Assembly (NCBI GenBank): GCA_903920145.1
Contig: CAIXKV010000068.1
Location: forward strand, 1 to 33,502
Length of the DNA stretch: 33,502 nt
DNA from: an uncultured Rhodospirillales bacterium
GTDB taxonomy: Bacteria > Pseudomonadota > Alphaproteobacteria > Azospirillales > Azospirillaceae
Direction of reading: 5' to 3'
Shown one piece after another: positions 1 to 33,491 of the stretch; positions within the stretch are counted from its first letter, which is position 1, and each line of letters opens with the position of its first letter. The notes under the pieces were generated by a model. It saw only the letters and a list, made by a program, of their open reading frames with translations, was not told the DNA's origin and did not search any database. A program made the translations under genes and the position numbers.

Positions 1-110
1 CCCCGCGTCCTCGTGGACGCGAAGCCCCACTGTGTGGACTCTAGGGGGCGCGGATGCGCCCGCCCGGCGTCTGAGGGCAGCCTTGATGAGTCACCATCAA
101 GGCCCGATTA
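1..110 (+). repeat. Hairpin MITE, copy 1 (cut by the window edge)
   Basis: This is the right-hand part of the dispersed element, cut at its left by the window start. Hairpins 3, 4 and 5 are visible. It carries about 16 extra bases between hairpins 3 and 4 (about 28-43, CCACTGTGTGGACTCT), which add a small CCAC/GTGG hairpin. The same insertion is seen near 30191-30206, so it defines a subtype. The right end (GGCCCGATTA) lacks two bases of the usual GGCTCGATGGTA. It is followed at once by TGA and the next copy, in the same orientation. Confidence 0.9.
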
Positions 111-113
111 TGA

Positions 114-260
114 TACCGGCGAGCCCTGATACTGACACACTGCCGGTATCGGGCCGCGACGGCGGCCCCGCGTCCTCGTGGACGCGAAGCCAAGGGCGCG
201 GATGCGCCCGCCCGGCGTCTGAGGGCAGCCTTGATGAGTCAACATCAAGGCTCGAGGGTA
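114..260 (+). repeat. Hairpin MITE, copy 2 (full length, 147 bp, TGA target duplication)
   Basis: This is the reference copy. The imperfect terminal inverted repeats are TACCGGCGAGCC (114-125) and GGCTCGAGGGTA (249-260); 10 of 12 positions match when one is reversed. TGA flanks both sides (111-113 and 261-263). The hairpins in order are H1 114-120/142-148, H2 151-157/162-168 (loop GACG), H3 169-175/180-186 (loop TCGT), H4 194-199/204-209 (loop GGAT) and H5 228-236/243-251 (loop AGTCAA). It contains no gene. Minus-strand translations through it are open but have the same sequence at every copy, so they are repeat-derived. Confidence 0.93.
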
Positions 261-2098: not shown

Positions 2099-3466
2099 TT
2101 ACCACTGAACAACCGTCCGGAGCAGGACCACGTCGCCGCTGTCGTTGCTCACGCTGGTCGGCTCGACCGAAGCCGGAATGTTGCTGGTGGCTTCGAAGTG
2201 AGTGTACTCGGCGCCAACCCGCAGGCCCGGAGCAACGGTGTACATGGTGCCGCCGGTGACGGCGCCCAGGGTCCGATTGCCGCTATAGGCCAAGTTGCCG
2301 GCGTCGGTCTCTTCGAGGTACTTCACACCGAACACCCACGGCCCGAGGGTGTACTGACCACCAATGTTCCAGGCCGTCTGGTCCTTGACATGGGTTGCAA
2401 CCCGGCCAGGAGCCCAAGCCGCATACTTGTTGCTGCCGGTCGCGTCCACCCACGGAGCCTTGGTGTAACCGCTCTGGCCACCATAGACGTAACCACCGCC
2501 CAGGATGAAATCGGCGTAACCGACCTGGCCGCCCAACTGGTACGACTCGAGGTCATGATAGGCATTTACCCCGCCGCCAGCGGCGTCATTGTGAGCCGAA
2601 CCACCCGCATAACCGGCGCTGGCCTTAACCAGAAAGCCGTTGAAGGTCTCGCCGTAGTTCAAGACCGCTTCGTAGCTGTCGTCGAAGTAGACGCGCTGCA
2701 AGCTGGTCGAGGTGGCCGCCGTGTACAGTGAACGATTGACGTCGGTGTTGACGCTGTTCTGACCACTGGCCGAGTCACCGTTACGCGGAGCGTAGCTAAC
2801 CGCACCCTGCAAGCCGTTGGTCGGGGTCGATCCAAAGAAGCGCGGGGTGTAGTAGACCAGCTTGGTGTCGATGTTGTGCGAATTGATCAGGCCCAGGCCG
2901 TTGCTGCCAATCGCGCCGTTGTTGAACTGGCCCCAGGCATAGCCGGTGCTGTTGCCGGGCGACTTGCTGTTGCTGCCGGTGGTGGTGTAGCCGGTCGGAA
3001 CGGCGCTGGTGTTGGTGCTGACATTGCTGCCGCTGGTGTATGACCGCCATTGATCATACAGAGTCAACATCTGCCAATCCAGCGGGTGGTTGACGCTGTT
3101 GATGTAATAATCGCCAGGGCCAAAGATCACGCCGCCCTGGATCTGACCGAAGTTGCCAGATACGTAGATGTAACCCTTGTCGGCATCGACCGTGCCGGCG
3201 GCGCTGTTGGCGCGGAGCCGAGCGAGAGCGCCGTAGGTGATGCCGTTGTCGGCAGTGGCCACCGGGTTCACGACCAAACGGAAGCGGTTTTCAAAGTCAA
3301 CGCCACCGGCGTTGTTATGCAAACGCTGATCGACGTAACCGCCTTCAATATAGGCGTCGCCGGTGAGCTTGACGTCGAACTTACCTGGGGCGGTTTGGGC
3401 GTTAGCGGCACCGGCGGTCAGAGCCAGTGCGAGGGCGGAAGTGCCCGCCAGCAGATAGTTTCTCAT
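2099..3466 (-). CDS. Outer-membrane general porin (second paralogue)
   Basis: A 455-residue porin. The start at 3466 follows a strong GGAGGAG ribosome site and opens a classic signal peptide (MRNYLLAGTSALALALTAGAANA, cleavage likely after ANA). The N-terminal GKFDVKLTGDAYIEGGYVDQ block is shared with the porin at 357-1661. The interior is less similar and has Ser/Thr/Asn/Gly-rich segments (about residues 160-200) that probably form extracellular loops. The last residue is Trp (RTVVQW), an aromatic end typical of BAM-inserted barrels. A terminator at 2024-2055 separates it from the first porin, so the two are probably transcribed and regulated independently. Solute specificity is unknown. Confidence 0.9.
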   Translation of the reverse strand: MRNYLLAGTSALALALTAGAANAQTAPGKFDVKLTGDAYIEGGYVDQRLHNNAGGVDFENRFRLVVNPVATADNGITYGALARLRANSAAGTVDADKGYIYVSGNFGQIQGGVIFGPGDYYINSVNHPLDWQMLTLYDQWRSYTSGSNVSTNTSAVPTGYTTTGSNSKSPGNSTGYAWGQFNNGAIGSNGLGLINSHNIDTKLVYYTPRFFGSTPTNGLQGAVSYAPRNGDSASGQNSVNTDVNRSLYTAATSTSLQRVYFDDSYEAVLNYGETFNGFLVKASAGYAGGSAHNDAAGGGVNAYHDLESYQLGGQVGYADFILGGGYVYGGQSGYTKAPWVDATGSNKYAAWAPGRVATHVKDQTAWNIGGQYTLGPWVFGVKYLEETDAGNLAYSGNRTLGAVTGGTMYTVAPGLRVGAEYTHFEATSNIPASVEPTSVSNDSGDVVLLRTVVQW

Positions 3467-8891: not shown

Positions 8892-8945
8892 TGCCATTCG
8901 AGCCTTGGTGGTGATTCATCAAGGCTGTGCCTTCAGATGCCGGTG
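8892..8945 (-). repeat. Decayed fragment of the hairpin MITE (minus orientation)
   Basis: The sequence from TGCCATTCGAGCC through hairpin 5 to CAGATGCCGG matches the right half of the element on the reverse strand (TACCATCGAGCC ... CAGACGCCGG) with scattered substitutions. TCA (8889-8891) precedes it, consistent with a TNA flank. The hairpin stem survives through a G.T wobble (AGCCTTGGTG with CATCAAGGCT). The rest of the element is not recognisable. It lies between the convergent holA and topA stop codons. Confidence 0.75.
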
Positions 8946-8955
8946 CCACGAGGGA

Positions 8956-11829
8956 CTAAGAGGGGGTGGCTTTTCTGGCACGTGGGCGCTTGGCCGGTTC
9001 GCTCTCGGAGCCCGTGCCATCGGCGGTCTTCTTGGTTCGCGCGCTCGAACTTGAAGACGCCGGGCTTTTCGTAGCCCTCTTTTTGGCTGGCGCCGGGGTT
9101 TCTACTGGCGCCGGGGCCGGTGTTGCCCCATGCGCCGCAGCTTTTGCGGCGGCTTTCTTTGGGGCGTCCTTGGCCGCTTTGCCTGTGCCGGCTTTGGCTT
9201 TGGTCTTCGCGGCGGGTTTGCCGGTTCCAACTTTGGCGGCTTTGGCGGCCAACAGGTCGACGGCCTCGTTCAGGGTGACATCTTCAGCGGCCATGCCTCT
9301 GGGCAGGGACGCATAGAGCTTACCATGTTTGACATAAGGGCCGAAGCGCCCGCTGCCGACCGTGATCGGTTTGCCATCGGCGGGATGTTCACCCAAGGCG
9401 CGTCCGGGATCGCTGGCGGCTCGCTGGCGACCCTCGGTGAGGGCGATTACGGCCCGATTGATGCCGATGGTCAGCACATCGTCGTCATCGGATAGGGATT
9501 TATAAATGTTGCCGTGGCGAAGATAGGGACCAAAGCGTCCGATCCCGGCAGTGATCATCGCGTTTCCTTCGGGATGGGGTCCAACATCTCGGGGAAGCGC
9601 CAGCAAGGCCAGGGCGGTCGCTAAATCCACATCCAGGGGGCTGAGATTCTTGGGAATCGAAACCCGTTTGGGCTTATCCTCGTCTTTGGTCTTTTTCTTG
9701 CGCTTGGCCTTGGCTTTGCCTGTTGCCGTTTCGGTCGGCGGGGGTGGCAAGGCCACGGTTTCGGTGAGCGGGCCGAGTTGGATATAAGCGCCAAAGGGGC
9801 CACGTCGGACGGTGACGGGCAGGCCGGTCGCCGGGTCGTGGCCCAGCAGGCGCGGCCCTTCCAATATCTCCCGACCGTCTTCGCCATCGGGAGAGGCGAT
9901 GCCGAGCGGGCGGGTGTAACGGCATTCGGGGTAGCGCGCGCAGCCGATGAAGGCGCCATTGCGGCTGAGTCGCAGGCCCAGTCGCCCTTCGTTGCAGGCC
10001 GGGCATGTGCGCGGAGAAACCCCGGCGGCGGTGGGTTCAGACGGGAAGAAGTGCGCCCCTAACGAGGCGTCCAGAGTGTCGATGACCTGGGTGATGGTCA
10101 GGTCTTTGGTGCCGGCGATGGCTTCCGAGAAGGCGCCCCAGAAAGCCCGCAACACCGCCTTCCAATCGATCCGACCGCCGGAAATGTCATCAAGCTGATT
10201 TTCCAGATCGGCGGTGAAGGTATATTCGACATAGCGGTCAAAGAAGCTTTCCAGGAAAGCCGTGACCAGACGGCCCCGGTCTTCGGGGACGAACCGCTTT
10301 TTCTCCAGGCGAACATAATCCCGGTCCTGGAGCACCTGAAGGATGCTGGCATAGGTCGAAGGACGCCCGATGCCCAACTCTTCTAGACGCTTGACGAGAC
10401 TGGCTTCGGTATAGCGGGGCGGTGGTTGGGTCGAATGCTGTTCGGGGCGAATGTCACCGCGCGACAGCGGGTCGCGTTCTTTGATCGGCGGCAACCGGCG
10501 CTCGGCTTCGTCGTCGTCGGCCACATCGTCGCGATCCTCCTTGTAGACCCGGAGGAACCCGTCAAACACCACAATAGAGCCGGTGGCCCGCAGCACCACG
10601 TCGCCCTTGGGCGAAGCAATATCCACCGTCGCCTGATCCAGAATGGCCGAGGCCATTTGGCACGCTATGGTGCGCTTCCACACCAACTCATACAGGCGCA
10701 ACTCGTCCCGGTCGAGAAAGCGGGCGACGTCCTCGGGGCGGCGTGCGAGGTCAGTCGGTCGAATCGCCTCGTGGGCCTCTTGGGCATTTTTGGCGCTGGC
10801 TTTGTAAAGCCGAGGGCTGGGCGGCAGATAGCGGTCGCCATAGCTGGTTTCGATCAGCGCGCGGGCACCGTTGACGGCTTCGTTGGACAACGACACGCCA
10901 TCGGTTCGCATATAGGTGATCAATCCCACCGTCTCGCCGCCGATGTCGACGCCCTCATAGAGCTTTTGGGCGATCCGCATGGTGCGGGTGGCGCCCAGGC
11001 CGAGCTTGCGGGAGGCTTCCTGCTGAAGCGTTGAGGTGGTGAAGGGCGGGTAGGGGTTGCGCTTGACTTGTTTGTGTTCGACGGACGCCACGGAAAAGGC
11101 GAGTGGCTTCATGCGTTCAACCACCGCCTCGGCGGCAGCCTTGGTGCCAAGCGCGAATTTATCGAGCTTTTTGCCGTCTAGTTGGATCAGTCGGGCATTG
11201 AAGCTTGCGCCATCCGGGGTTTGGAACGTGACCTCGATGGTCCAAAACTCTTGGGACCGGAAAACCTCAATCTCGCCTTCACGCTGGCACACCAGACGCA
11301 AGGCCACCGACTGCACTCGGCCTGCCGATTTCGCACCCGGCAGTTTGCGCCACAGCACTGGCGACAGGGTGAATCCGACCAGATAATCCAGGGCGCGACG
11401 AGCCAGATAGGCTTCCACCAACTCGCGGTTGACCGCGCGAGGCGCACCAATCGCCGCTAAAACGGCGCTTTTGGTAATTTCGTTGAAGGTCACCCGCTCG
11501 ATTTTGAGCCCAGGAGGAAGGCGTTGCTCTCGAAGCAGTTCTTCGACATGCCAAGCGATGGCTTCACCCTCGCGATCCGGGTCGGTGGCGAGGTAAACCC
11601 GTGTCGCGCCTTTGGCCGCGCGCACGATCTCGTCAAGGTGACGCTTGGAGCGTTCCCCCAACTCCCAGTCCATGGCGAAATCTTCGTCAGGACGAACCGA
11701 GCCATCACGGGCGGGCAAATCCCGAACATGACCAAAGCTGGCCAGAACGGTGTAGTTGGGCCCGAGATACTTGTTGATCGTCTTGGCCTTGGCCGGCGAT
11801 TCGACGATGACGACATTGCTGACCGGCAC
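8956..11829 (-). CDS. topA: DNA topoisomerase I
   Basis: A 957-residue type IA topoisomerase that relaxes negative supercoils through a 5'-phosphotyrosine intermediate. The start is GTG at 11829 behind GGGAGGA. The TOPRIM domain opens with VVIVESPAKAKTINKYLG and carries the DxD-type acidic motif (ATDPDREGEAIAWH). The active-site tyrosine is Tyr306 in LITYMRTDGVSLS. One C-terminal zinc-binding module (CPACNEGRLGLRLSRNG...CARYPEC) is followed by repeated GRFGPYL/V-type modules. The last 110 or so residues are a low-complexity Lys/Ala/Pro tail, as often seen in alphaproteobacteria, probably binding DNA non-specifically. dprA lies 48 bp upstream on the same strand, so a dprA-topA operon is likely. 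Confidence 0.97.
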   Translation of the reverse strand: MPVSNVVIVESPAKAKTINKYLGPNYTVLASFGHVRDLPARDGSVRPDEDFAMDWELGERSKRHLDEIVRAAKGATRVYLATDPDREGEAIAWHVEELLREQRLPPGLKIERVTFNEITKSAVLAAIGAPRAVNRELVEAYLARRALDYLVGFTLSPVLWRKLPGAKSAGRVQSVALRLVCQREGEIEVFRSQEFWTIEVTFQTPDGASFNARLIQLDGKKLDKFALGTKAAAEAVVERMKPLAFSVASVEHKQVKRNPYPPFTTSTLQQEASRKLGLGATRTMRIAQKLYEGVDIGGETVGLITYMRTDGVSLSNEAVNGARALIETSYGDRYLPPSPRLYKASAKNAQEAHEAIRPTDLARRPEDVARFLDRDELRLYELVWKRTIACQMASAILDQATVDIASPKGDVVLRATGSIVVFDGFLRVYKEDRDDVADDDEAERRLPPIKERDPLSRGDIRPEQHSTQPPPRYTEASLVKRLEELGIGRPSTYASILQVLQDRDYVRLEKKRFVPEDRGRLVTAFLESFFDRYVEYTFTADLENQLDDISGGRIDWKAVLRAFWGAFSEAIAGTKDLTITQVIDTLDASLGAHFFPSEPTAAGVSPRTCPACNEGRLGLRLSRNGAFIGCARYPECRYTRPLGIASPDGEDGREILEGPRLLGHDPATGLPVTVRRGPFGAYIQLGPLTETVALPPPPTETATGKAKAKRKKKTKDEDKPKRVSIPKNLSPLDVDLATALALLALPRDVGPHPEGNAMITAGIGRFGPYLRHGNIYKSLSDDDDVLTIGINRAVIALTEGRQRAASDPGRALGEHPADGKPITVGSGRFGPYVKHGKLYASLPRGMAAEDVTLNEAVDLLAAKAAKVGTGKPAAKTKAKAGTGKAAKDAPKKAAAKAAAHGATPAPAPVETPAPAKKRATKSPASSSSSARTKKTADGTGSESEPAKRPRARKATPS

Positions 11830-11877: not shown

Positions 11878-13047
11878 CTAACCGTCTGATTCGATCCCAG
11901 GGATCGAAATCAGGTTCACCTGATTGCCTGGCCGCCGCTCTGCCCGTCCGGCCAGTTCCAGTTCCAGCACTACGGTTTGAACGATCGCCGCAGACAATTG
12001 ACAGCCACGGACCAGTTCGTCAATTGGAACCGGCGACGGACTGAGGCTTTCCAGCACCAACACGCGGGCGCGGGCCAGTTCGGCCTCGTCCAAACGCGGC
12101 GTGGGAGCCAGCGGGCGGCTCATCAGAGCCTCTCCGGTGCCTTCGCGGGCTCCGGGTCGAATCAGAGGGGTTAGCACTTGGAGCACATCGGCAGCCGATT
12201 GTATCAGGGTTGCGCCTTCGCGAATCAGGCTGTTGGTTCCCTGGCAGCGTGGATCCAGAGGCGAGCCCGGCACCGCCAGCACCTCGCGCCCCTGTTCCAG
12301 CGCAAAGCGGGCGGTGATCAGGGAGCCCGATTTGAGCGCAGCCTCAACCACCACCACACCCAGGGAAAGCCCCGAGATCAGTCGGTTGCGGCGGGGAAAA
12401 TGGCGGGCCTGGGGCTGGGTGCCGACCGGATTTTCGGAAATAGCCACGCCTTCGACGATCAGGCGACGATAGAGCGCGTCATTGTCCTCGGGATAGATCA
12501 CATCGACACCGCCCGCCAACACCGCCACGGTGCCGCCAGCCATGGCGCCGTCATGGGCGGCAGCGTCAATGCCTCGAGCCAAGCCTGAAACCACCACCAG
12601 TCCAGCGTCGCCCAGCTCGCGGGCCAGCATATGCGCAAAGCGGCGGCCATTGACCGAAGCATTGCGGGCGCCGATCACCGCCACCGCCGGGCGTTGCAGC
12701 AGGTGAGCGTGTCCCAACACGAACAGCAGCGGAGGACGGTCGTCGACGGTGGCCAAGGATACGGGATAATCGGGCTCGCAGGCTGCCAGCGGGCGAATGC
12801 CAGCCCGGACACAGGCCGCCAACTCACGCTCGACCTCAGCCTTGGCCGGGACGCGCAACGGCTTGCTCTTCCCGCCCTGCTTGGCCAGCTCCGGCAAAGC
12901 CTTCAGTGCCGCTCCTGCCGAACCATACTGGTCGAGCAACCGGAAAAATGTGATCGGTCCGACATTCTCAGCCCGGATCAGGCGCAACCAATCGAGGCGC
13001 TCGGCGTCGGACAAGGGGCGGCGAATCAAAGGCATGGGTAAGGCCAT
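11878..13047 (-). CDS. dprA: DNA-processing protein DprA (Smf)
   Basis: A protein of about 389 residues that binds incoming single-stranded DNA and loads RecA in natural transformation. The gene is also widespread in species not known to be competent. After an N-terminal helical region (LSDAERLDWLRLIRAENVGPITFFRLL) comes the Rossmann-like core: LAVIGARNAS-type strand, GLVVVSGLARGIDAAAH and GGVDVIYPEDN. A C-terminal winged-helix-like segment follows (LSPSPVPIDELVRGCQLSAAIVQTVVLELELAGRAER). The frame stays open up to 13131; the start at 13047 (MALPMPLIRR) fits the family N-terminus better, and 13035 is also possible. An inserted repeat copy ends about 87 bp upstream, so the promoter must be short or lie within or beyond the repeat. 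Confidence 0.93.
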   Translation of the reverse strand: MALPMPLIRRPLSDAERLDWLRLIRAENVGPITFFRLLDQYGSAGAALKALPELAKQGGKSKPLRVPAKAEVERELAACVRAGIRPLAACEPDYPVSLATVDDRPPLLFVLGHAHLLQRPAVAVIGARNASVNGRRFAHMLARELGDAGLVVVSGLARGIDAAAHDGAMAGGTVAVLAGGVDVIYPEDNDALYRRLIVEGVAISENPVGTQPQARHFPRRNRLISGLSLGVVVVEAALKSGSLITARFALEQGREVLAVPGSPLDPRCQGTNSLIREGATLIQSAADVLQVLTPLIRPGAREGTGEALMSRPLAPTPRLDEAELARARVLVLESLSPSPVPIDELVRGCQLSAAIVQTVVLELELAGRAERRPGNQVNLISIPGIESDG

Positions 13048-13134
13048 TCCAAGCGTGGCGACAAGGGACGCTGGTGTTTCGCGCAATTGTGACAGCGGGG
13101 TCAAGTGCGGATTGCATCGGTTGCAAAGCAATCA

Positions 13135-13240
13135 TACCGGCGAGCTATAACGATGACACACTGCCGGTATCGGGCCGCGACGACGGCCCGCCCGGCGTCT
13201 GAGGGCAGCCTTGATGAGTCAACATCAAGGCTCGAGGGTA
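13135..13240 (+). repeat. Hairpin MITE, internally deleted copy (106 bp, TCA target duplication)
   Basis: Both ends are intact (TACCGGCGAGC and GGCTCGAGGGTA), and TCA flanks both sides (13132-13134 and 13241-13243). Hairpins 3 and 4 are missing: hairpin 2 joins directly to GCCCGGCGTCTG. Hairpins 1, 2 (GGGCC/GGCCC) and 5 remain. The right-hand TCA is the reverse complement of the TGA stop codon of the DHOD-like gene, so the insertion targeted that stop codon and its duplication kept the gene terminated. Confidence 0.92.
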
Positions 13241-23315: not shown

Positions 23316-23366
23316 ATAAGCCGACCGGGGGGCCCACCGCAAGCCGCCTGCGTACCCAAGGTTTGA

Positions 23367-23489
23367 GAGCGGCGAGCCCTGATACTGACACATCGCCGGT
23401 ATCGGGCCGCGACGGCGGCCCCGCGCGCCCATGCGCCCGCCCGGCGTCTGAGGGCAGCCTTGATGAGTCAACATCAAGGCTCGAGGGTA
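23367..23489 (+). repeat. Hairpin MITE, internally deleted copy (123 bp, TGA target duplication)
   Basis: The left end reads GAGCGGCGAGCC, two changes from TACCGGCGAGCC. The right end is GGCTCGAGGGTA. TGA flanks both sides (23364-23366 and 23490-23492). The left arm of hairpin 3 is fused to the right arm of hairpin 4, removing about 25 bases. The 9 bases TGAGAGCGG occur both at 23364-23372 and at 23490-23498, longer than the 3-bp duplication of the other copies; the extra match may be chance or conversion. Confidence 0.9.
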
Positions 23490-25556: not shown

Positions 25557-25761
25557 CGCCAGTCTCCGCTTTCTAAGGGCCTTTCGCCGTGACCCTCCCG
25601 GAGGGTCGCAGAGATCGAGAAGTGTTAGATGGGGTTGCAGAAGCGCGAATAAAGTAGGCCGCAGCGGAATATTATCTCTTTTTGCTGAGGCTTAATTTTC
25701 ACACATCGGCGAGTCGGTTCGCGACCATAGAGGTTGGTTGCAATCCCGGCCACGGTTCTTA

Positions 25762-25909
25762 TACCGGCGAGCCCTGATACTGACACATCGCCGGTCCTCG
25801 GGCCGCGACGGCGGCTCCGCGTGCCCATGCGCGCGAAGCCAAGGGCGCGGATGCGCCCGCCCGGCGTCTGAGGGCAGCCTTGATGAGTCACCATCAAGGC
25901 TCGATGGTA
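25762..25909 (+). repeat. Hairpin MITE, full-length copy (148 bp, TTA target duplication)
   Basis: The ends are TACCGGCGAGCC and GGCTCGATGGTA, and TTA flanks both sides (25759-25761 and 25910-25912). All five hairpins are present. In hairpin 3 the stem is CGCGTGC/GCGCGCG with loop CCAT, versus CGCGTCC/GGACGCG in copy 2: one pair is swapped C-G to G-C and one T-A becomes T.G, so pairing is kept. It lies 9 bp beyond the stop of the minus-strand MFS gene. Confidence 0.93.
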
Positions 25910-28525: not shown

Positions 28526-28591
28526 AACTGGCAAGGTGCCTGTTTATCTCCCCGGTTCTCACGGTGCCGTTAATCTTTTCCCCATAAGGTT

Positions 28592-28629
28592 TCCCGTGCG
28601 CCTATGCGCGCGAAGCCGAGGGCGCTGCG
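28592..28629 (+). repeat. Fragment of the hairpin MITE
   Basis: TCCCGTGCGCCTATGCGCGC followed by GAAGCCGAGGGCGC matches hairpin 3 and the left arm of hairpin 4, with the CCAT-loop version of hairpin 3. Neither terminal repeat remains. It lies four bases beyond the stop of the DUF2459 gene and upstream of the MarR operon. Confidence 0.7.
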
Positions 28630-28632
28630 ACA

Positions 28633-29319
28633 TCATCGGCCCTCTGGAAGCTGGTAGAACAGGGCTTGGCCAAAGGGGGCCCACAGAGGCACTCTGACTC
28701 CGGCTTGGGCTAGTGCCTCGCGCACCCACTCGTTACAGGTGGTGAACATCGTATAGTGACCCTCGGCCACGAAAAAGGCGTCGTGTAGGGTGTAACGGAC
28801 ATCAGGAATGAGCAGAGGGGTTCCTTGGTCGCTGCGGAGAAAGCCAGCCTGGAGATAATCGGTTAGACGGCGATAGGCGTCTACGGACAACCGAAGGTGG
28901 CGGGTGTCGGCGCCTGGAAGGGGACGCGGCATCGCTTCCACATGCATGACTGAACCATCGAGTCCAAAGAGGGCCTTTGCGGCGCTCGTGAAGCGAAGAG
29001 TCGCCCAGGTCGGGGTGCTCAGATAGAACTCGCGATCTCCCCAGCCGAATGCCAAATAATCATGGAACCCAGGAATAATCCCTAACTTCTGGATCGGCAA
29101 AACACCGTACCAGTCCTGTTCAGGAGTCACGATGGGAACCACCAGATCCGTATGAATGCCATTGTTTATAAGATAAATATCAATACCAGAGGAAATCGAG
29201 TCTTGGTTTCGGTTGATCACCACCAAACCACCAACCATCGCAGCCAGCAGATAGAGACCGACCAGGACGAGCGGGGTACTGGCCACCAACAGTCCAACTT
29301 TGACCCATCTTTTTGTCAC
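28633..29319 (-). CDS. DUF2459 / TIGR02117 family membrane-anchored protein
   Basis: A protein of about 228 residues with one N-terminal membrane helix (GLLVASTPLVLVGLYLLAAMVGGLVVI) and a periplasmic domain. Recognised blocks are INNGIHTDLVVPI, DYLAFGWGDREFYLSTPTW, HVEAMPRPLPG and YTMFTTCNEWVREALAQAG, which match the uncharacterised DUF2459 family. His, Asp and the TCNEW Cys/Asn could form a catalytic site; this is speculative. The frame opens at 29400. GTG at 29319 is preferred because AGAGGAG lies eight bases before it, and this avoids a 53-bp overlap with the methyltransferase gene upstream. The two genes are probably co-transcribed. Confidence 0.85.
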   Translation of the reverse strand: MTKRWVKVGLLVASTPLVLVGLYLLAAMVGGLVVINRNQDSISSGIDIYLINNGIHTDLVVPIVTPEQDWYGVLPIQKLGIIPGFHDYLAFGWGDREFYLSTPTWATLRFTSAAKALFGLDGSVMHVEAMPRPLPGADTRHLRLSVDAYRRLTDYLQAGFLRSDQGTPLLIPDVRYTLHDAFFVAEGHYTMFTTCNEWVREALAQAGVRVPLWAPFGQALFYQLPEGR

Positions 29320-30159: not shown

Positions 30160-30237
30160 AGCGGCGCCAGCGCCTCTTGCAGACGAGAGGCCCCAGTGTG
30201 TGGACTCTAGGGGGCGCGGATGCGCCCGCCCGGCGTC
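30160..30237 (+). repeat. Left part of a nested hairpin MITE (outer copy)
   Basis: From about 30187 the sequence clearly matches hairpin 3-4 of the subtype with the 16-base insertion (CCAGTGTGTGGACTCT). A weaker match may begin near 30160. It stops at GGCGTC, where TGA (30238-30240) leads into the next copy. In the intact element GGCGTCTGAGGGC is continuous, so the inner copy appears to have inserted at that internal TGA. Confidence 0.8.
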
Positions 30238-30240
30238 TGA

Positions 30241-30387
30241 TACCGGCGAGCCCTGATACTGACACATCGCCGGTATCGGGCCGCAACGGTGGCCCCGCGT
30301 CCTCGTGGACGCGAAGCCAAGGGCGCGGATGCGCCCGCCCGGCGTCTGAGGGCAGCCTTGATGAGTCACCATCAAGGCTCGATGGTA
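30241..30387 (+). repeat. Hairpin MITE, inner copy of a composite (147 bp)
   Basis: All five hairpins are present and the right end is GGCTCGATGGTA. The left flank is TGA (30238-30240) but the right flank is TCA (30388-30390); the mismatch is expected if nested copies later recombined. Hairpin 2 is GGGCCGC/GTGGCCC with a G.T wobble. The right end interrupts the 3' part of a tnpB remnant on the minus strand. Confidence 0.92.
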
Positions 30388-33344: not shown

Positions 33345-33491
33345 TACCATCGGGCCTTGATGCTGACTCATCAAGGCTACCCTCAGACGCCGGGCGGGCG
33401 CATCCGCGCCCTTGGCTTCGCGCGCATGGGCGCGCGGGGCCGCCGTCGCGGCCCGATACCGGCGATGTGTCAGTATCAGGGCTCGCCGGTA
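33345..33491 (-). repeat. Hairpin MITE, full-length copy (147 bp, minus orientation)
   Basis: On the reverse strand this copy carries all five hairpins, with hairpin 3 as CGCGCGC/GCGCGCG and loop CCAT, giving C-G where copy 2 has T-A. Its element-right end (TACCATCGGGCC on the plus strand) is flanked by TGA, its element-left end by TCA. The left junction reads GGCGTC-TGA-TACCGG on the reverse strand, the same nested junction as at 30232-30246. Confidence 0.92.

Follow-up and report, generated by a model that had tools for sequence, protein, structure and literature searches.

The window, by which we mean the whole 33,502-bp stretch of DNA analysed here, is contig C68 of a 4.26-Mb draft genome in 269 contigs. 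A repeat of about 147 bp recurs along it, in complete copies and in fragments. The parts of the copy at 114-260 and the remaining copies are as follows.

1..111, plus strand: right part of another copy, directly before the copy at 114-260; the contig begins inside it
114..260, plus strand: full-length element, 147 bp; TGA at 111-113 and 261-263
114..141, plus strand: left terminal inverted repeat
151..168, plus strand: hairpin H1, 7 bp, loop GACG
169..186, plus strand: hairpin H2, 7 bp, 4-nt loop
194..209, plus strand: hairpin H3, 6 bp, loop GGAT
210..225, plus strand: conserved tail 3' of H3; this stretch and H1 belong to the best conserved parts of the element
233..260, minus strand: right terminal inverted repeat
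8893..9015, minus strand: partial copy, diverged
13135..13240, plus strand: shortened copy, 106 bp; both flanks TCA
23367..23489, plus strand: shortened copy, 123 bp; left end GAGC, not TACC; both flanks TGA
25762..25909, plus strand: copy, 148 bp; both flanks TTA
28588..28648, plus strand: weak fragment of the H2-H3 region (E 0.008)
30241..30387, plus strand: copy, 147 bp; flanks unequal, TGA/TCA; abuts a truncated copy at 30182-30240
33345..33491, minus strand: copy, 147 bp, at the contig end; flanks unequal, TGA/TCA

The first seven bases of the left terminal repeat can pair with positions 142-148 to form a left hairpin. Flanking trinucleotides are equal in four of six copies in the window and unequal at 30241-30387 and 33345-33491; the equal flanks listed in the initial annotation (TGA at 111 and 261, TCA at 13132 and 13241, TGA at 23364 and 23490, TTA at 25759 and 25910) are correct. 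Its terminal repeats of 12 bp proved too short: they extend over approximately 28 bp (TACCNNCGAGCCNTGATNNTGACNCATC), the consensus ends being identical at 22 of 28 positions and those of the 114-260 copy at 20 of 28.

Abundance and target duplication of the element

The repeat is real and abundant, as first noted from the window alone. With up to three mismatches, the 28-bp terminal repeat occurs 409 + 403 times in the draft genome, against none for a reversed control, and the left end occurs 297 times. These figures suggest roughly 300-400 copies in this genome, an estimate that may double-count copies located at contig breaks and that overlooks diverged ones. Copies delimited by pairing of ends (96 in 850 kb) span 81-167 bp and contain no transposase gene. 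Among the 73 that are 140-170 bp long, the median nearest-neighbour identity is 97.3% and the mean pairwise identity 86%, indicating that recent as well as old copies make up the family. Small size, many copies, absence of a transposase gene, terminal inverted repeats, and a target site duplication, the marks of a MITE, are all found. Palindromic units of approximately 41 bp (41-42 bp) formed from right ends also occur, either singly or about 40 bp apart (L084, 5346-5387; L094, 4145 and 4185; L091, 3100 and 3141), and resemble minimal derivatives of the element.

In a first set of 50 copies, 41 have TNA flanks, and N is equal on the two sides in 26 of these (0 of 100,000 shuffles as good). A larger set, overlapping the first, comprises 96 paired copies from 81 stretches (850 kb): TNA is present on both sides in 72, with equal N in 52 of the 72 against 19.6 expected (0 of 20,000 shuffles), while TNA is missing from one or both sides of 24 copies and 20 TNA-flanked copies have unequal N. 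The agreement is direct, not inverted, N being complementary in just 6 of 72. The initial reading of a MITE-like, non-autonomous element with a 3-bp TNA duplication is thus supported by these counts (52 of 72), the basis being flank statistics rather than a clean empty site of the element's own.

Target duplications and terminal repeats of this kind are not known to be typical of REP sequences. This bears on a reading of the copies as REP/BIME-type palindromic repeats of the GTAG or CGTC kind, whether RAYT-associated or lacking any known transposase, whose spread leaves no target duplication. The high copy number, the palindromic character of the units, the GGCGTC tail, and the 41-42-bp palindromes built from right ends are all in keeping with that reading, as is the mainly alphaproteobacterial distribution of CGTC repeats given in passages of one source (PMC3733652). 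Against it stand the 28-bp terminal repeats and the significant TNA duplication, which is present where the REP/RAYT definition has no target duplication, and on these features we find the reading very improbable.

Spacing between neighbouring copies fits the preferred reading of a TNA-duplicating MITE. A right boundary closely precedes a left one (gap of -5 to 30 bp) in 16 cases; 8 of these have a spacing of exactly 3 bp, and in 7 of the 8 it reads TNA, as expected if a new copy enters a TNA beside an old one. Judging from this spacing, such insertions would leave tandem elements that share a single TNA.

Two further loci allow a loose empty-site comparison for the family. On contig C27 a copy (12883-13029) is nested in another, and across 65 bp the joined flanks with one TTA can be aligned to an intact element without gaps; the single-TTA model scores 102 against 99 and 97 for other models, a small margin. 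On contig C78 of the window's own genome, a TPR/glycosyltransferase-41 gene (L098, 4417-6939) contains an in-frame copy, where the insert of 147 + 3 = 150 bp adds 50 codons and the 840-amino-acid frame stays open. The ortholog in another genome (G001) has no insert; its two parts are 68 and 66% identical, and an indel makes the site ambiguous by 3 nt. This in-frame copy calls to mind the palindromic elements that occur in frame in Rickettsia, as those are described in passages of PMC3733652.

Autonomous IS630-like relatives and the probable source of mobility

Related ends, of the form TACC..GAGC..TGAT..TGAC.CAT, bound IS630-like insertion sequences. At loci of two genomes (G025 and G029), found by an end-motif pattern search, TACC ends and TNA flanks enclose a 1,167-bp element in which a helix-turn-helix (HTH) frame overlaps with a second, DDE_3 frame. 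The second frame matches PF13358 (3e-29) and NCBIfam transpos_IS630 (1.6e-46, above cut-off), so that these autonomous relatives carry the DDE_3-type transposase of the IS630/Tc1/mariner group. The G025 transposase is identical to one of Nitrospirillum viridazoti CBAmc. A tandem pair of the 1,167-bp elements shares one TTA, as do some of the MITEs.

A scan of named genomes yielded 472 relatives, of which 80 were kept, mostly from alphaproteobacteria by title; 71 of the 80 loci were examined, the other nine having their match near a contig end. Both ends were found in 58 of the 71 (TACC ends were required for this count, flanks were not), with TNA on both sides in 56 and equal N in 48 of these, against 19.8 expected (0 of 20,000 shuffles). 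Two empty sites are available. An insertion in Rhizobium sp. T1473 aligns without gaps to S. meliloti pRRI128_4, which has one TCA (152 of 157 positions identical), and pSmeSM11b agrees at lower identity; a second site, in T1473 and T1470, aligns without gaps to Rhizobium sp. T136, which has one TAA (156 of 157 identical). A TA duplication predicts TNATATNA in the empty site; at both sites the TA model scores lower, as do models without duplication. The 2-bp TA duplication that characterizes IS630/Tc1/mariner elements is therefore not what these relatives make: two independent empty sites with a single TNA show that this IS630 group duplicates 3 bp, TNA and not TA.

The expectation stated in the initial annotation, that loci without the element show a single uninterrupted TNA, thus holds for the autonomous relatives at two sites; for the element's own family it holds loosely, through the nested copy and the G001 ortholog. 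No empty site of a Novosphingobium insertion sequence was present among the 12 matches listed (21 records). The same kind of ends reaches beyond close relatives: among 10 remote IS630 loci, nine of which (30-60% identity) were examined, six have TACC ends and equal TNA flanks, including one from Moraxella and two from Acaryochloris, although at two of the six (L386 and L387) the TACC end was the third-ranked candidate and the assignment is weaker. Of the other three, one (L383) is ambiguous and two (L379 and L385) have no recognisable ends. In G002, a genome of the same genus as the window's, an IS630-like element (L184, 637-2101) has ends GTACCTCGGCAC in CTAG, which is compatible with TA; TNA-type and TA-type IS630-like elements are therefore both present in the genus or its relatives.

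Compared with single autonomous ends, those of the MITE match at 17-21 of 28 positions, most of the agreement falling in the blocks TACC, GAGC, TGA, and GAC.CA. Another genome of the genus (G004) contains two decayed transposase remnants whose C-termini are directly followed by TACCATCGAGCCT..., with which the common right end of the MITE opens (its first 13 bases); TTA comes next in one remnant, and the other (L203) has no TNA there. In our judgement the repeat is very probably a MITE, mostly of 102-167 bp and with imperfect 28-bp terminal inverted repeats, mobilised in trans by a TNA-duplicating IS630-like transposase. A transposase of the IS630/Tc1/mariner group would cut out the MITE and insert it in trans, targeting and duplicating TNA, and we infer that a TNA-type enzyme of this kind moved the copies in the window.

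The insertion sequence that the initial annotation had supposed to lie elsewhere in the same genome was not found: neither an intact parental transposase nor a match to the same-genus transposase remnant is present in the draft genome. Its one DDE_3 match (L188, contig C46) is a short IS630-type fragment without TNA-type ends. The suggested search for an insertion sequence with these ends thus led to IS630-like elements with related ends elsewhere and to no such element in the window's own genome. Because no intact parent was found there, the family is probably now orphaned in this genome, or its parent is unassembled. On contigs C14 and C73, inverted ends separated by 1.5 and 2.5 kb enclose host-like genes and were set aside as separate elements. 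G041, a genome from another taxonomic family of the class, contains three clear short MITEs (L114, 1042-1222; L115, 900-1185; L116, 882-1054) that have a similar motif and differ in their interior; their inverted repeats, TACCAAKGAGCGYTGATAATGACYCAT, are perfect or nearly so. Flanks are equal (TTA) in two of the three and TAA/TTA in the other.

TNA duplications occur in some IS5 groups, and an IS5-family link had been proposed, by which an IS5-family (IS1031-like) transposase would move the element and make its TNA duplication. One locus of the window's own genome (L072, contig C252) might seem to bear this out, where an IS5-type frame at 1204-2115 is preceded by a complete MITE copy of 123 bp (1078-1200) and followed, some 0.9 kb downstream, by a truncated one, which ends at 3016. 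Both neighbours carry the MITE interior, however, so we read them as separate MITE copies that adjoin the IS5-type frame by chance, although the locus makes an IS5 parent slightly less improbable. Thirty-five loci with IS5-type domains were examined: every one of the 5 PF01609 matches in the own genome, and 30 of the 50 PF13586 matches that were listed across 13 genomes. In 34 of them the transposase is not enclosed by a pair of such ends, so that an IS5-type parent is not supported; IS630-like elements, by contrast, have such ends at their own termini. Apart from the L072 frame, no IS5-type transposase was found between such ends, the arrangement by which membership of that family would be recognized, and we regard the unsupported IS5 origin as very unlikely.

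The hairpin interior

Folding the 114-260 copy at minimum energy reproduces, as five hairpin loops, the five serial hairpins first described for the element; the predicted folds of other copies differ somewhat. Four foldings gave z-scores of -5.0 to -5.6, with 0 of 200 shuffles as good. The element was matched in 24 of 59 genomes searched, its own included, and outside the genus the matches, among those listed, cover mostly positions 38-112 (approximately) or part of them. Matches on named plasmids comprise nine from Azospirillum, two from Niveispirillum, and one, of 29 bp, from Tistrella. The genome's family is taken to be Azospirillaceae since the matches in two of its members (G031 and G015) have the same coordinates as those on plasmids of Azospirillum ramasamyi and Niveispirillum cyanobacteriorum. 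No resemblance between the interior and the transposase gene was noticed.

Covariation was assessed on 22 sequences from several genera, over three helices with 20 base pairs. Pairing is kept in 96.3% of cells against 79.5% in shuffles, and 11 of the 20 pairs have changed on both sides against 8.1 in shuffles (5 of 500 shuffles as high). Double-change cells number 60, whereas shuffles give 19.3 and a slid pairing gives no more than 9. The sequences were chosen from matches fitting the core, a choice in favour of the structure, and counts of this sort are inflated by relatedness. The loops and the tail GGCGTCTGAGG are conserved across the set. From these comparisons, the interior is a predicted three-hairpin module, conserved and covarying across genera of the Azospirillaceae.

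The hairpins may be a functional cis-acting RNA, a regulatory leader or terminator-like structure, to which mobility is secondary. The strong covariation of the three helices and the conserved loops and tail speak for it, as do some core copies at the Nitrospirillum-matched loci, which by eye lie apparently just before start codons. On the other side, no Rfam family reaches the gathering score: the window contains no match at that level, and 13 loci searched at E up to 1 gave five matches, all below it. Nor is there an orientation bias between co-directional genes, with 12 copies in the same and 12 in the opposite direction, from 24 usable of 96 copies with a crude gene caller; its absence argues weakly against a simple mRNA role. 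We hold a cis-acting RNA of this kind to be unlikely.

In a genus matched to Nitrospirillum (g2), the module's 3' half is preceded by a 5' half of another kind (L058, L060-L063, L065, and L121-L123); several of these half-modules lie apparently just upstream of a start codon, and no TACC ends are visible.

Quasi-palindrome correction is a known process in palindromes, and the compensatory changes could have arisen by such hairpin-templated mutation instead of selection for the fold. The arms do remain complementary while their sequence changes, as this would predict; conservation also extends to loops and linkers outside the stems, which arm correction leaves unexplained. We rate templated mutation as a real possibility, though the less probable side of the question. 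More doubtful, and put forward as speculation, is the idea that a structured module selected for function is carried between TNA-duplicating IS630-like ends as a mobile cassette of structured RNA or single-stranded DNA. The family supplies hundreds of covarying hairpin modules in one genome, making the role of the hairpins testable.

Comparison with known systems

On the evidence of the two empty sites, a widespread bacterial IS630-like group duplicates TNA rather than TA, which raises the question of how an IS630-like transposase makes a 3-bp stagger. Since TA also borders the CC...GG core of such elements, our results suggest that a TA duplication may have been taken for granted in some of them. 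Literature searches, which covered titles and the beginnings of abstracts in a collection with few subscription journals, found no paper joining IS630 with TNA duplication and no description of the repeat family.

The autonomous relatives share with the IS630/Tc1/mariner (ITm) elements, for example IS630 and ISY100, the DDE_3 transposase with HTH domains, the terminal inverted repeats, and an A/T-bounded target. In C. elegans, Tc4 and Tc5, which are related to Tc1/mariner, duplicate TNA; the duplication is alike, although these elements are eukaryotic. IS630 and ISY100 themselves duplicate TA, according to passages of PMC2170065, whereas the relatives found here duplicate TNA; TA is the rule in the group, with TATA for Sailor, in the corresponding passages of PMC8533490.

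Among bacterial MITEs, Nezha, Correia/NEMIS, bcr1, and ERIC, as sketched in parts of PMC3733652 and PMC10969869, are likewise short, lack a transposase gene, have terminal repeats, and sometimes reach hundreds of copies. The element described here, likened to them by description, differs in its TNA target and three-hairpin interior. REP repeats (GTAG and CGTC, in the portion of PMC3733652 that treats them) are also palindromic and abundant, whereas the element in the window is bounded by terminal repeats of 28 bp and duplicates TNA.
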